From Candidatus Collinsella stercoripullorum (GTDB lineage Bacteria; Actinomycetota; Coriobacteriia; Coriobacteriales; Coriobacteriaceae): a stretch of 64,000 bases of DNA. Location of the stretch: assembly GCA_019117005.1 (NCBI GenBank), contig DXAO01000014.1, forward strand, positions 124,001-188,000. Direction: 5' to 3'. Every line of letters starts with the position of its first letter. Positions within the stretch are counted from its first letter, which is position 1. Below are positions 4,436 to 56,530 of the stretch, one piece after another. The position numbers were made by a program, and so were the translations under genes. Below the pieces are notes generated by a model. The model was not told the DNA's origin. It saw nothing but the letters and a program-made list of their open reading frames with translations, and did not search any database.

Positions 4436-4510
4436 GCGGGCATCGCCAAGTGGTAAGGCATCAGCTTCCCAAGCTGACACTCGCGGGTTCGAGTCCCGTT
4501 GCCCGCTCCA
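4436..4510 (+). tRNA. tRNA-Gly (anticodon CCC)
   Basis: This is a complete 75-base cloverleaf with CCA encoded. The acceptor GCGGGCA pairs with TGCCCGC, the anticodon loop TTCCCAA gives anticodon CCC, and the T-loop is TTCGAGT. The 3' end from the T-loop onward is repeated downstream at 4673. Confidence 0.95.
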
Positions 4511-4713
4511 GGAACTTCAAGGCACCGGCGACGGTGCCTTTCCCGTTTCCGGGCCCATCTCGGGGACTCGAACCCGATGGGGTCGCGAGGCTGCGGGAAA
4601 GCGCGAGAGTTCCCCAGCGAGCGCGCGAGGGGGCCGCAGGCCCCCGGAGCATGCGGGCGCCGCAGGCGCGCGCGAGTCCCGTTGCCCGCTCCAGGAACTT
4701 CAAGGCACCGGCG
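4490..4713 (+). repeat. tRNA-linked hairpin unit downstream of tRNA-Gly (183-bp period)
   Basis: A perfect 41-base direct repeat (4490-4530 and 4673-4713) runs from the tRNA T-loop through the CCA end into the left arm of the terminator. Between the copies lie an inverted copy of the tRNA T-arm (4563-4576, GGGACTCGAACCCG) and three hairpins: 4590-4617 with a GCGA-containing loop, 4629-4645 (GGGGGCC/GGCCCCC, loop GCA) and 4657-4669 (GCGCC/GGCGC, loop GCA). The same layout follows tRNA-Lys and tRNA-Ser. The second tRNA piece is only a 3' fragment and cannot be a functional tRNA. Confidence 0.9.
4519..4547 (+). terminator. terminator of tRNA-Gly
   Basis: The stem GGCACCG/CGGTGCC with a GCGA loop (4521-4538) is followed by TTTCCCGTTT. 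Only its left arm is carried into the downstream duplicate. Confidence 0.75.
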
Positions 4714-4737: not shown

Positions 4738-5017
4738 TTCGTTTTTCGGAACCTGGCACGGAATCGGTGTTTGGGGGAGGGTCATCTCGAACCCAGTCCG
4801 AAGAACAAATATCGCTTTGTCCGGAATGAGCGTTTGGTCCGCTTCAAATCGAACGAAAAGGGGTTGGACCGCATGCATCGGCGGCGTCCCGGCACCTGAA
4901 AACGATCCGGGAGCACGGTTTGGCGGCAGATGGTGGCCCGCCTGCCGGGCTTCCGGGTGGCGGACGGCGCCGGGCCTCCCCCAAACACCGATTCCGTGCC
5001 AGGTTCCGAAAAACGAA
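4738..5017. repeat. 280-bp element with perfect 43-bp terminal inverted repeats
   Basis: Arms 4738-4780 and 4975-5017 are perfect reverse complements over 43 bases. Each contains CGGAACCTGGCACGG and a GTTTGGGGGAGG end. The roughly 190-base interior has no credible reading frame. This is the form of a non-autonomous (MITE- or REP-like) element. No transposase is nearby. It lies just upstream of the purB promoter region. Confidence 0.85.
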
Positions 5018-5153: not shown

Positions 5154-6497
5154 ATGATCGACCGCTACACCCGTCCCGAGATGGGCCACATCTTCTCGCT
5201 CGAGAACAAGTACCGCATCTGGCAGGAGATCGAGGTCCTCGCCTGCGAGGCGCACGCCGAGATGGGTAAGATCGGCATCACCCGCGAGGAGGCGGCGTGG
5301 ATCCGCGAGCACGCCGACTTCAACAAGGAGGAGGTCGACGCCATCGAGGCGGTCACCAACCACGATGTCATCGCGTTCCTCACCAACATGGGCGAGTACA
5401 TCGACCGCGACGTGCCCGAGGGGGAGCCCAAGCCGAGCCGCTGGGTCCATTTCGGCATGACCAGCTCCGACCTCGGCGACACCGCTCTGTGCTACCAGCT
5501 CGTCCAGGCGACCGACATCATCCTCGATGACGTGAAGAAGCTCGGCGAGATCTGCCTCCGCCGCGCCTTCGAGCAGCGCGACACCCTCTGCGTCGGCCGC
5601 ACCCACGGCATCCATGCCGAGCCGATGACCTTCGGCATGAAGTTCGGCAGCTGGGCCTGGGAGCTCAAGCGCGATTACGACCGCCTGAAGGAGGCCCGTT
5701 CCAACATCGCCTACGGCGCGATCTCCGGTGCGGTGGGAACCTACTCGTCCATCGACCCGTTCATCGAGGAGTACGTCTGCGAGCACCTGGGTCTTGTGCA
5801 CGACCCGCTGTCCACGCAGGTCATCAGCCGCGACCACCACGCCTACCTCGCCTGTGTGCTCGCCACCACGGCGGCGACCTGCGACCGCATCGCGACCGAG
5901 ATCCGCAACCTCCAGAAGACCGACACCCTCGAGGCCGAGGAGCCGTTCCGCAAGGGGCAGAAGGGCAGCTCGGCCATGCCGCACAAGCGCAACCCCATCA
6001 CCCTCGAGAAGGTCTGCGGCCTCTCGCGCATCGTGAAGGCCAACGCGCAGGTCGCGTTCGACAACGTCGCCCTGTGGCACGAGCGCGACATCTCCCACAG
6101 CTCCGCCGAGCGCGTCGCGCAGGCCGACAGCTTCATCGCGTTGGACCACATGCTGCACTGCCTGATCCGCATCGTGGACGGCCTCATTCTCTACCCCGCC
6201 CAGATGCTGGCGAACCTCAACAAGACGCGCGGCCTCATCTACTCGTCCAAGGTGCTGCTCGCGCTCGTGGAGACCGGCATCACCCGCGAGGAGGCCTACG
6301 CCATCGTTCAGGAGAACGCCATGGCGACGTGGCGCGAGGTCCAGCAGTGCGAGGCCGGGACCACCTTCCGCGAGAAGCTCGAGGCCGATCCGCGCTGCAC
6401 CGTCCCCGCCGAGCAGCTTGACGAGATCTTCGACCCCCGCGCGTTCCTGACCCGCGTCGACGTGGTGTTCGACCGTCTGGAGCAGCTCGAGTTCTGA
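5154..6497 (+). CDS. purB: adenylosuccinate lyase
   Basis: This cytosolic enzyme of purine synthesis cleaves SAICAR to AICAR and adenylosuccinate to AMP, releasing fumarate. The protein is 447 residues, close to the family norm. It carries the fumarase/aspartase-superfamily signature SSAMPHKRNP near residue 270, the loop with the catalytic serine, plus the early GRTHGIHAEP and TSSDLGDT motifs. The ATG has AAAGGAGC about eight bases upstream. A -10-like TATACT lies at 5105-5110, but I find no good -35 partner. purC, another purine gene, lies 13 kb away and is not part of the same operon. Confidence 0.97.
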   Translation: MIDRYTRPEMGHIFSLENKYRIWQEIEVLACEAHAEMGKIGITREEAAWIREHADFNKEEVDAIEAVTNHDVIAFLTNMGEYIDRDVPEGEPKPSRWVHFGMTSSDLGDTALCYQLVQATDIILDDVKKLGEICLRRAFEQRDTLCVGRTHGIHAEPMTFGMKFGSWAWELKRDYDRLKEARSNIAYGAISGAVGTYSSIDPFIEEYVCEHLGLVHDPLSTQVISRDHHAYLACVLATTAATCDRIATEIRNLQKTDTLEAEEPFRKGQKGSSAMPHKRNPITLEKVCGLSRIVKANAQVAFDNVALWHERDISHSSAERVAQADSFIALDHMLHCLIRIVDGLILYPAQMLANLNKTRGLIYSSKVLLALVETGITREEAYAIVQENAMATWREVQQCEAGTTFREKLEADPRCTVPAEQLDEIFDPRAFLTRVDVVFDRLEQLEF

Positions 6498-6521
6498 TCG
6501 CGGCGGCATATCCGTTCCCGA

Positions 6522-6556
6522 CGGGGGCATCCGGTTCACCCGGGTGCCCCCGTTTT
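6522..6556. terminator. terminator between purB and the convergent luxR-type gene
   Basis: The stem CGGGGGCAt/gTGCCCCCG encloses CCGGTTCACCCGG, which itself pairs, and is followed by TTTT on the plus strand. It ends purB. The minus-strand gene ends at 6629 and may also use it. Confidence 0.7.
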
Positions 6557-6628
6557 CCATCGCGTCCGCTGCGCGTGCGGAGCCGCATCCGCGAAGCGGC
6601 GCCGACCGATACCACGCCGGGGTACCCG

Positions 6629-8197
6629 CTACGCGCGCGGGGAGCCGTACTCGGCGATGTAATCCAGGATCTCCTGCCGCGAATGCAGGTCGGTCTTCTC
6701 GTAGATGCGCTTGATATGCGAATGGACCGTGTTGGGGGAGAGGTGGAGCTCCTCGCTCACGCGCGCCTGGGTGTGGCCGAGTGCGTAGAGCGTCAGGACC
6801 TCGATCTCACGGCCGGTCAGCCCGAACCTGCTGCCCATCTCGATGACCGACGTGGCGGTGTGGACGTCGGGCGTGCGGTTGACCATGGCCGGGGGGTTGT
6901 GCGGCGAGATGGCGAGCACGCCCATCAGGGGGATCCGGCGGATGTCGTCCTCCGTCACGGGCGCGCTCCCGCGCCCCGCGGCCTCCTGCTGGCGCTCGAC
7001 GCGCTCGCTCGGCGAGGAGAGTAGCTTGGTGAACACCACCTGCGCGGCGATGAGCACGAACAGGCTCATGATCGAGATGAGCACCGGGGTGTTTTCGGGG
7101 AACACCCGTCCGATCAGGTTGTCGGCGCGCATGCCGCAGACGAGCAGCAGCGTCATGGTGATCCATCCGACGCCGCAGTAGTAGTACGGGTCGCGCCAGC
7201 CGAAGCTGATGAAGGCGATGGTGAGATACCACAGGAACGCCTGGAGCACCAGGGACGATCCCATGACGAAGGCGGCGCCGACCGAGATGGTCTTGGGCCA
7301 GATGGAGAAGAAGACCGCACCGAGGGCGAGCAGGACCTGCATGACGACCCAGATGCTCGTGGTGATGGCCCGCATGCGCGAGGCGAGACCGAAGCGCACC
7401 CACTGCAGGGAGACGCCCACCACGAACACGAGGACCATGAAGCGCGGCACCGTGCTCATGTAGATGGCCGCGCCGTCGGAGAAGCCGAGCCCCATGCCGG
7501 TGGGGATGGAGATGAACCATATCCCGAGCATGGCGACGGCGAGGAAGCTGCGGTTCGAGAACCGGTCCTCGTCGGTGCCGAAATAGGATTCGGAGACGGC
7601 GGGGAAGGGGTCGCCGGCGGCGCCGAGGATGCGCGACGCCCGCACGGCGACGAGCTGGGCCGCGGTGAGCGGAATGCCGGCCAGGTACCAGACGAGCTCC
7701 TGGGAGAAGCTGAGGACGAAGGTCGCGAACTCCGAGAGGGCGAGCGCGCAGAACACGACGATGACCGCCGCCTGGGCGGAGGTCCCGCGCAGCTTGCGGA
7801 GCCAGTAGAACTTCACCGCGGTGCTCCCCGCCGCCACGCCCGCCTGCAGCCCGGCGGCCACGGGGAGGGCGAGCCCGGACCTCGTCGCCGAGGCGAGGGC
7901 GAGCGCGGCGCAGCACGCGCCCGCGAGCAGGAGCGAGGCGTTGAGGAAGCGGGAGACGAAGCGCTTGGTGAAGCGCGCGACCGAGAGCGTGGAGAGGTAG
8001 AGCGCCGCGAGGGCGACGGCCGCGAGCAGCATCCCGAGCCCGTTGAACGTCGACACCCCCGTGGTCCGGTGCGCCTGCTGGACCACGACGTTCACGACGG
8101 CGGAGGAGAGCGCGAGGCCGGCGACGGGGGGAATGAGCACCCGATAGGTGCCGAAGGTCACGGGCGGCATGCCCTGATCGCTGTCGCTCTGCTGCAC
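6629..8197 (-). CDS. LuxR-family regulator with a multi-pass membrane domain
   Basis: About 450 N-terminal residues form some twelve hydrophobic helices. The last roughly 65 form a LuxR-type helix-turn-helix (TGREIEVL, then LSPNTVHSHIKRIYEKTDLHSR). Such fusions are common and numerous in Coriobacteriia, where they are thought to sense membrane or extracellular signals and control neighbouring redox genes. I chose GTG at 8197 because GGGGGAG lies six bases upstream. A TTG at 8212 is in frame but has no ribosome site. The gene diverges from the redox cluster at 8330, which is its probable target. Its ligand cannot be read from the sequence. Confidence 0.85.
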   Translation of the reverse strand: MQQSDSDQGMPPVTFGTYRVLIPPVAGLALSSAVVNVVVQQAHRTTGVSTFNGLGMLLAAVALAALYLSTLSVARFTKRFVSRFLNASLLLAGACCAALALASATRSGLALPVAAGLQAGVAAGSTAVKFYWLRKLRGTSAQAAVIVVFCALALSEFATFVLSFSQELVWYLAGIPLTAAQLVAVRASRILGAAGDPFPAVSESYFGTDEDRFSNRSFLAVAMLGIWFISIPTGMGLGFSDGAAIYMSTVPRFMVLVFVVGVSLQWVRFGLASRMRAITTSIWVVMQVLLALGAVFFSIWPKTISVGAAFVMGSSLVLQAFLWYLTIAFISFGWRDPYYYCGVGWITMTLLLVCGMRADNLIGRVFPENTPVLISIMSLFVLIAAQVVFTKLLSSPSERVERQQEAAGRGSAPVTEDDIRRIPLMGVLAISPHNPPAMVNRTPDVHTATSVIEMGSRFGLTGREIEVLTLYALGHTQARVSEELHLSPNTVHSHIKRIYEKTDLHSRQEILDYIAEYGSPRA

Positions 8198-22116: not shown

Positions 22117-22192
22117 GGGCCGTTAGCTCAGCTGGCAGAGCAGGGGACTTTTAATCCCAAGGTCTAGGGTTCGAACCCCTAACGGCCCACCA
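22117..22192 (+). tRNA. tRNA-Lys (anticodon TTT)
   Basis: A complete 76-base cloverleaf with CCA encoded. The acceptor GGGCCGT pairs with ACGGCCC, anticodon loop CTTTTAA, T-arm GGGTTCGAACCC. A -10 box TACAAT lies at 22102-22107, leaving nine bases to the tRNA. No clear -35 is seen. Confidence 0.96.
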
Positions 22193-22408
22193 CAGGTACG
22201 AGAGGGCCTCGGCGACGGGGCCCTTTTGGTTCCGGGCTCCGTGCGGGGTTCGAACCGATGAGGTCGCGAGGCTGAGCGAACGCGCGAGCGTTCGCCAGCG
22301 AGCGCGCGAGGGCGGCGGGAGCCGCCCGGAGCGCGCGGACGCCGCAGGCGGACGCGAACCCCTAACGGCCCACCACAGGTACGAGAGGGCCTCGGCGACG
22401 GGGCCCTT
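22172..22408 (+). repeat. tRNA-linked hairpin unit downstream of tRNA-Lys (183-bp period)
   Basis: A perfect 54-base direct repeat (22172-22225 and 22355-22408) runs from the T-loop through CCA and the whole terminator. The copies are 183 bases apart, the same distance as at tRNA-Gly. Between them are an inverted T-arm copy (GGGGTTCGAACC near 22244) and three hairpins: GCGAACGC-GCGA-GCGTTCGC flanked by GCTG/CAGC, GGGCGGC/GCCGCCC, and CGCC-GCA-GGCG. The core is clearly homologous to the Gly and Ser units. Confidence 0.9.
22203..22226 (+). terminator. terminator of tRNA-Lys (first copy)
   Basis: AGGGCC pairs with GGGCCCT around a GCGA-type loop, followed by TTTT. The arms are repeated at the end of the downstream unit (22386-22409), where CTTCTTAT follows. 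Confidence 0.65.
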
Positions 22409-26729: not shown

Positions 26730-27123
26730 ACCGGCGGCGCTTCGCGCGCCGGTCCCGCTTCGGGCGGCTCCGCCGCCCTCGCGCACTGCGCTGGCAAAGA
26801 CGCTCACGCGCTTTGCGCAGCTCCGCGCCCTGCGGGTTCGAATCCCTCTCGCCCTCGGCTGAGAGGAGCTCCGGGCCTCGGAGGATTACCTTGTTGATAG
26901 GGGTGGCTGGCGGAGAGAGAGGGGACGGGGGGATGAGGCTGAGGGATATCCGCCGGGCTGCGCCCGGCTCCCGCTTCGGGCGGCTCCGCCGCCCTCGCGC
27001 GCTGCGCTGGCAAAGACGCTCGCGCGCTTTGCGCAGCTCCGCGCCCTGCGGGTTCGAATCCCTCTCGCCCTCGGTTGAGAGGAGCTCCGGGCCTCGGAGG
27101 ATTACCTTGTTGGTAAGGGTGAC
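26730..27123 (-). repeat. two tandem tRNA-linked hairpin units downstream of tRNA-Ser (216-bp period)
   Basis: Read on the minus strand after tRNA-Ser there are a spacer, an inverted T-arm copy (GAGAGGGATTCGAACCC), three hairpins (GCAAAG..CGC-GCGA-GCG..CTTTGC, GGGCGGC/GCCGCCC, GCCGGGC/GCCCGGC), then a second 3' tRNA fragment (26908-26923). The whole pattern then repeats. Copies are offset by exactly 216 bases (for example CCCGCTTCGGG at 26754 and 26970) and differ at only a few positions. The last unit has a diverged third hairpin and no final tRNA fragment. The core matches the Gly and Lys units. Confidence 0.88.
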
Positions 27124-27213
27124 TGGCGGAGAGAGAGGGATTCGAACCCTCGGAACGCTCGCGCGCTCAACGGTTTTCAAGACCGCCGCATTCAACCGCT
27201 CTGCCATCTCTCC
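27124..27213 (-). tRNA. tRNA-Ser (anticodon TGA)
   Basis: A 90-base class II tRNA with a long variable arm and CCA encoded. GGAGAGA pairs with TCTCTCC, the anticodon loop is CTTGAAA, and the T-arm is GGGTTCGAATCCC. A -10 box TATCAT (minus strand, 27224-27229) lies just upstream. The order tRNA-Ser, tadA, SRP RNA is seen in several Gram-positive groups. Confidence 0.95.
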
Positions 27214-56208: not shown

Positions 56209-56530
56209 CGCCCCGCCTCGGCAGCCGGGCGCCGCGGCCTGCGGTGCCGTATCCGGCGGGGCCGGTCCTCCCCGATGCGGGGCGCCGGCCCCGTGCCCGC
56301 GCGCGGCATCCGGCTCGCGGGTACCGCGCCCCGCCGCCGTTCGCCGACGTCGAGCGTTACGTGCGTGTTTCCGATGCATCCGAGCTGGTAATCCGGCCCG
56401 ACCCGCGGTAAGGTTGGACACTGTGCGCGTAACTTTCTCGCATTAGGTTGCAAGGGGGAGGGGAATGGGTCCCCTCCGGTTGCGTCGCACGGAAGGGGTC
56501 ATACGCACAGCAACTGGGAAGGAACCGATC
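56209..56530 (+). other. intergenic region upstream of the amino-acid importer
   Basis: A hairpin CGGGGCCGG/CCGGCCCCG (56257-56293) may terminate the epimerase gene. The AT-richer stretch 56360-56450 probably contains the importer promoter (TTGGAC near 56411). No known riboswitch is recognised in the leader. Confidence 0.4.

Follow-up and report, generated by a model that had tools for sequence, protein, structure and literature searches.

The 3' ends of tRNA and tmRNA genes in Collinsella and related genera carry a recurrent, protein-free unit of about 180 bp, in which a covarying hairpin core follows the 3' end of the gene. We favour, with about even confidence, the reading that this unit is a non-coding, non-autonomous, RNA-structured micro-element living at the T-loops of these genes. 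The reading is preferred because of the placement of the core (14/14, 58/60 and 30/30 loci in three sets of genomes), its covariation and G-U bias, a tRNA-specific arm, cores that move independently of the arms, the occurrence of filled and empty syntenic sites, and a probable gain in one distant genome (G134).

The window is the whole stretch of 64,000 nucleotides analysed here (G000:C52:124001-188000), part of the 2.22-Mb draft genome of Candidatus Collinsella stercoripullorum (G000, the own genome). ARAGORN detected three tRNA genes in the window, and sequence comparison confirmed the claim of an earlier note that all three carry units (Table 1). Behind tRNA-Gly a segment reaching from T-loop C56 through the acceptor strand and CCA into the terminator was repeated with 41/41 identical bases and a period of 183. 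The repeat behind tRNA-Lys comprised 54 identical bases and had, as previously described, the same period. tRNA-Ser was followed by two 180-base units (95% alike, offset 216), the second of which differs in hairpin P3; a third tRNA 3' end is absent. Hairpin loops and linkers match among the Gly, Lys and Ser units in the way first described, and the inserts (about 140 bp) are indeed too small for an integrase, or for any other gene. The earlier description of the insert was correct for the hairpins but overlooked that an inverted copy of the T-arm of its own tRNA lies at the start of each insert (Gly, Lys and Ser). Searching the window with a short consensus pattern was uninformative, the matches being at chance level. 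Two further features were noticed in the window: perfect 43-nt inverted repeats lying 194 nt apart (4738-4780 and 4975-5017), which form a MITE-like segment (4738-5017) adjoining the Gly unit, and a Corio-PBP RNA (RF02945) at 56423-56496, found by the Rfam search with 102.7 bits.

Table 1. Units behind the three tRNA genes of the window (positions in the window)
Feature	Position	Strand	Basis
tRNA-Gly(ccc), host gene	4436..4510	+	ARAGORN, Rfam
Gly direct repeat copy 1, T-loop C56 to terminator loop	4490..4530	+	sequence comparison
Gly terminator-like hairpin AGGCACC..GGTGCCT with T run	4520..4541	+	sequence
Gly inverted T-arm copy (anti-T) GGGGACTCGAACCCG, 5' strand of stem P0	4562..4576	+	
Gly covarying core: small hairpin, P1 (GCGA loop), P2 (GCA), P3 (GCA)	4573..4673	+	model hits, fold
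Gly 3'-end copy 2: P0 3' strand, acceptor strand, CCA, half terminator	4673..4713	+	
tRNA-Lys(ttt), host gene	22117..22192	+	ARAGORN
Lys 54-bp direct repeat, copy 1	22172..22225	+	
Lys inverted T-arm copy GGGGTTCGAACC	22245..22256	+	
Lys covarying core	22254..22355	+	model hits; RNA fold z-score -3.98
Lys 54-bp direct repeat, copy 2	22355..22408	+	
tRNA-Ser(tga), host gene	27124..27213	-	ARAGORN
Ser unit 1 (core 26950-27052, inverted T-arm 27041-27066)	26960..27139	-	model hits
Ser unit 2 (core 26732-26836, inverted T-arm 26825-26850)	26744..26923	-	model hits

A unit is counted from C56 of the T-loop to the C56 of the next copy, and contains, in this order, the 3' end of the gene, the terminator, a short spacer, the inverted T-arm copy (anti-T), a small hairpin and the hairpins P1, P2 and P3. 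The anti-T starts 52-57 bp behind the gene end. The host gene stays intact because the unit brings the gene's 3' end with it; the displaced 3' end sits behind the core. The direct repeat begins mostly at C56/G57 and the duplicated stretch varies in length from less than 40 to more than 140 bp. Its similarity breaks off at various points, some still within the terminator and others far into the core, which indicates that last units decay. No ORF was found in the units, and the insert has no room for one.

The anti-T fits its own tRNA. In 64 distinct units it was complementary to positions 56-62 of the T-half of its own gene, the exceptions being G-U pairs at 59/60 (six cases) and a single mismatch at 62; all departures at positions 56-61 were thus G-U. 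Within the anti-T, GAACC pairs with GGTTC, and GGATTC with GAATCC. The first search pattern fixes positions 56-58, hence the comparison was rerun with a looser anchor. For 58 units the match came to 4.5 of 6 tRNA-variable positions, as compared to 3.0 after permutation of the T-halves, and none of 10,000 permutations reached as high a value. Since the displaced copy often lacks positions 56-58, the anti-T follows the gene at least as well as the copy.

Folding gave a closing stem P0, the small hairpin, P1 with a GCGA-type loop, P2 and P3; P0 is formed by the anti-T and the displaced T-half in units whose copy begins at C56. The first covariance model of the core (R1) was built without P0, so that similarity to tRNA was unable to drive the matches, and a second one (R2) was made from 88 cores. 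In the R2 alignment of 85 distinct cores 93.8% of the cells were paired, and 25 of the 29 pairs showed compensatory changes on both sides. The covariation score was 0.335 as compared to 0.116 for shuffled and at most 0.074 for slid controls, a large margin for an alignment that, being fitted to the model, leans towards it. With the poorly aligned small hairpin excluded, there were 62 G-U but 16 A-C cells. This excess points to the core folding as RNA of the tRNA-sense strand; folding as single-stranded DNA is a less likely alternative. These features point to constraint on the core and the anti-T as tRNA-sense RNA. Among 4227 Rfam families no match above the gathering cut-off was obtained for the units, only tRNAs and sub-threshold chance matches.

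Covariation also bears on the view that the units are passive by-products of slippage or template switching at hairpin-rich tRNA ends, with no selection on the product. Such errors yield tandem duplications with truncated last units as well as quasipalindromes, and the mosaic cores described below show exchange. However, homologous cores with compensated pairs are shared by different genera, lie at no genes other than those for tRNA and tmRNA, and persist in orthologues. Disfavoured already by the covariation, this explanation is considered very improbable.

The covariance-model search proposed in the earlier note gave many matches, nearly all at tRNA 3' ends. When the tRNAs of the own genome were examined locus by locus, at least 12 of the 47 ARAGORN-distinct tRNA genes were found to carry complete units with direct and inverted copies and six more had partial units; all 14 model matches lay in units at tRNA 3' ends. 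Behind the partial units of Ser-gct, Gly-tcc, Thr-tgt and Thr-cgt no distant displaced 3' end was found within the 4-16 kb examined. Tandem units may be under-counted, as the ends of several contigs of this genome (C2, C20, C22, C39, C57 and C58) fall at or within tRNA genes, that of C58 within a Gln-ttg unit. In eleven relatives 58 of 60 extracted match regions were at tRNA or tmRNA 3' ends. ARAGORN placed a tRNA upstream in 54 of the 60; L106 and L115 lie behind tmRNA-type 3' ends, and L136 and L143 behind tRNA 3' fragments. The only two unplaced regions, L091 and L093, are contig-end cases with the tRNA out of view. These two contig ends (genome G008) share their upstream sequence and have crossed anti-T and T-half (Lys versus Arg), probably an assembly chimera. 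In seven further genomes 30 of 30 checked loci were likewise at host genes, L223 at the 3' end of a tmRNA and the others at tRNA genes, and ARAGORN confirmed tmRNA as a host in G004 and G007.

R2 matches were present in 42 of 45 Collinsella genomes. Among 298 genomes of the class they were restricted to five genera of the own family and to three genomes of a second family, f5. The core pattern also matched contig CALULJ010000034.1 of an uncultured Collinsella MAG. The suggestion of a family of tiny tRNA-associated elements thus held, the unit recurring at 12 tRNAs of the own genome and in dozens of others. Chance repetition or artefact is ruled out by the placement at tRNA ends, the recurrence across genomes and the covariation.

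The main rival holds that the unit is a host-useful RNA in cis: a structured tail of long standing on tRNA and tmRNA transcripts, which aids 3' maturation, termination or protection of the tRNA. Such a tail would spread by gene conversion and often be lost, and the anti-T would act as an RNA switch between the T-arm and the displaced 3' end. The same set of tRNAs is occupied across species and genera, and orthologous units at 8-20% divergence keep their pairs (29 compensatory versus 8 broken base pairs). The Leu-caa core is conserved well above its flanks: between the own genome and G022 it is 98% identical while most flanking windows are about 70-85%. The 'structural RNA tail' that the earlier note had named as an alternative is likewise supported by the G-U over A-C bias of the core and by the G-U departures of the anti-T. 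Against it, units are often absent: five of eight syntenic Lys-ttt loci are empty, the close relatives G015, G049, G058 and G008 lack the Leu-caa unit, and three Collinsella genomes have no hits at all. Ends and copy number vary, and as the units sit behind a terminator, they could be made only by read-through or from some other promoter. On balance we regard a host-useful tail as rather unlikely. Behind tRNA-Leu(caa) of G015 and G008 (L244, L246) near-perfect palindromes of about 60 bp (TGGGAAGAAAGTGCCTGCCCC...) stand between the terminator and the next gene; they represent another repeat family.

Whole units are gained, lost and multiplied in tandem, and exchange of cores takes place between tRNAs. 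The Lys-ttt/DnaJ-like locus was compared in eight syntenic Collinsella species: five have no unit there, and the three that are filled have the segment from T-loop to terminator duplicated. Close relatives of G013 have one unit, two identical units or exactly one fewer at the Lys-ttt locus, with flanks 98-100% identical. Tandem duplications with truncated final units are found, and the Arg-cct trailers GCAAGC and GGGAAC have swapped positions between copies in different species, which points to an old unit whose copies have undergone conversion.

Core similarity was 0.688 between different tRNAs within a genome, 0.647 between genomes and 0.704 for the same tRNA between species. Cores at different tRNAs are hairpin-wise mosaics. 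In the 37 closest core pairs from different tRNAs the T-half 7-mer was common to 32%, as compared to a background of 27%, and the spacer was usually not common, except for Thr-cgt and Lys-ttt of the own genome. Near-identical cores without a common 7-mer or spacer indicate that the core travels or is converted, and that the arms are local or locally made. A pre-matched guide choosing its targets was rejected, as near-identical cores stand at tRNAs with differing 7-mers no less often than expected. That the spacer rarely accompanies a near-identical core suits gene conversion as well as insertion. The alignments show that arrays gain and lose whole units through direct repeats and that cores are exchanged between tRNAs.

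Since loss through direct repeats is easy, empty sites prove little. The empty Lys-ttt sites of G003, G007, G010 and G043 were discarded as proof of gain, since the terminal inverted T-arm persists in them, which suggests loss through the repeats. The best case for de novo insertion is the tRNA-Glu locus in family f5, where G134 alone among 27 genomes with a locus match has an R2 core. The Glu loci inspected from other f5 genomes have the tRNA and the terminator, and no remnant. G134 has a second unit at Arg-ccg with a near-identical core and an arm of its own (GTGGG instead of GCGGG). By parsimony, the tRNA-Glu unit is probably a lineage-specific gain. Behind tRNA-Thr(cgt) of the own genome (L006) a sequence whose long ends are inverted (GAAAGCATGTCG...CGACATGCTTTC), possibly another small insertion, interrupts the displaced 3' end of the unit directly after CGAAC. 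In L282, L284, L283 and L280 (G006, G018, G004 and G009, respectively) an insertion of about 1.1 kb separates the displaced tRNA-Lys 3' end from its terminator; it holds an ORF starting MKTDRYGISGSTLKIIAAISMVLDHVSR, which resembles TraX.

Neither an enzyme nor a circle was found for the units, and no integrase lies inside or is tied to them. Reverse transcriptase was rejected as a driver: RVT_1 occurs in only 12 of 45 Collinsella genomes and in none of the unit-rich G008, G015, G017 and G022. Carriage by phages or plasmids was rejected as well. The plasmid search gave no match to the unit, and the matches of the phage search contain only tRNA genes. Short patterns matched 45 viral contigs, with a real unit in just one (L317, IMGVR_UViG_2921084881_000004). 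This unit adjoins a prophage integrated in a tRNA-Lys 3' end and is read as host flank. At the end of this prophage a 559-aa serine-recombinase-like ORF (5602-7281) is found, with the tRNA-Lys 3' end and the unit at 7082-7178; according to PMC4383910, tDNAs are not among the targets of serine recombinases.

These results have to be weighed against a DNA-level explanation, in which circles of about 180 bp are excised from a tRNA gene and return to the same one by means of a tyrosine integrase with its crossover in the T-loop. Hairpins and anti-T would then be accessory integrase sites and not RNA. The layout is that of an island endpoint pair, a restored gene plus a displaced 3' fragment, and tRNA T-loops are known crossover sites of genomic islands (PMC4383910). 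The C56/G57 boundary and the near-identical loci that differ by exactly one unit fit equally. The incoming circle, however, would already have to bring along the terminator of its target, and terminators agree within a locus but differ between species. Moreover, strong RNA-type covariation with G-U over A-C bias is unexpected of integrase sites. An integrase lies neither inside the unit nor linked to it. Overall, we judge such a micro-island to be unlikely.

If the units are micro-elements, the active form would be a single strand in its folded shape, most probably an RNA that arises by read-through from the tRNA promoter. Joining it to the T-loop of another tRNA gene would fall to a trans-acting enzyme, and a staggered joint would duplicate the segment from T-loop to terminator, so that the tRNA survives. 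Refitting of the anti-T to the new tRNA could take place by copying of the target during insertion or by later hairpin (quasipalindrome) correction. The full version of this scheme, a gene-less mobile RNA element that enters any tRNA or tmRNA T-loop, rebuilds the 3' end and rewrites its guide arm for each tRNA, is put forward only tentatively. Against the micro-element reading are the lack of an enzyme, ORF or circle, a reverse transcriptase distribution that does not track the units, the wide occupation of the same tRNAs, the age and conservation of some units (Leu-caa core, Arg-cct trailers), and the fact that empty sites can arise by deletion. The earlier interpretation therefore stands for a tRNA-associated element family and not for mobilization in trans: no enzyme was found, units can be lost precisely via direct repeats, the spread of cores could be gene conversion, and gain is supported by parsimony only.

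For bacterial islands and phages the 3' ends of tRNA genes are a major point of entry. If mobile, the units would rank with the smallest mobile elements of bacteria and have an arm that changes with the target; if they serve the host, a large part of the tRNA genes in a common gut genus would bear an RNA tail so far overlooked. The covariance models and coordinates make both readings testable. The Islander filter demands an integrase and a minimum of 2 kb (PMC4383910), and a family such as this would be missed by island finders that drop integrase-less or shorter items. The earlier note had not recognised the unit as anything named, and the searches made here matched no Rfam family, mobile element or paper; the literature search found no description of tRNA-tail units. 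The units do not appear in the main text of two structured-RNA surveys (PMC8040213, PMC2864571), whose candidate lists may hold them unnamed.

Among known systems, Collinsella-1 (RF01700) and Corio-PBP (RF02945) are also structured RNAs of Coriobacteriia, but the units match neither. Like MITEs and REP/BIME sequences, the units are short, non-coding, hairpin-rich and multi-copy. Unlike MITEs, they have target-specific arms, no terminal inverted repeats common to the copies and no target duplication of fixed length, and unlike REP/BIME, which are dispersed intergenic palindromes often accompanied by a RAYT gene, they occur only at tRNA/tmRNA genes. A retroelement served by reverse transcriptase in trans is at odds with the absence of that gene from several unit-rich genomes. 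In group I introns the internal guide sequence pairs with both sides of the target junction, and the anti-T is likewise complementary to both junction sides, a likeness of complementarity and not of splicing. The core of the unit, however, is about 100 nt without an Rfam match or a catalytic P3-P9 core, the host tRNA is intact without splicing, and the displaced 3' end in the conserved Leu-caa unit has no ACCA. The closest parallel in layout is with tRNA/tmRNA genomic islands, in which an element-borne 3' end restores the gene, the displaced 3' fragment lies at the far end, the boundary is in the T-loop, tmRNA is used and tandem arrays are formed. In contrast to islands, the units have neither integrase nor cargo, are about 180 bp long as compared to the 2 kb of Islander, duplicate the terminator too, and carry an inverted T-arm copy and a covarying RNA core. 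Set beside these systems, the unit is best read as a new kind of RNA-structured micro-element.
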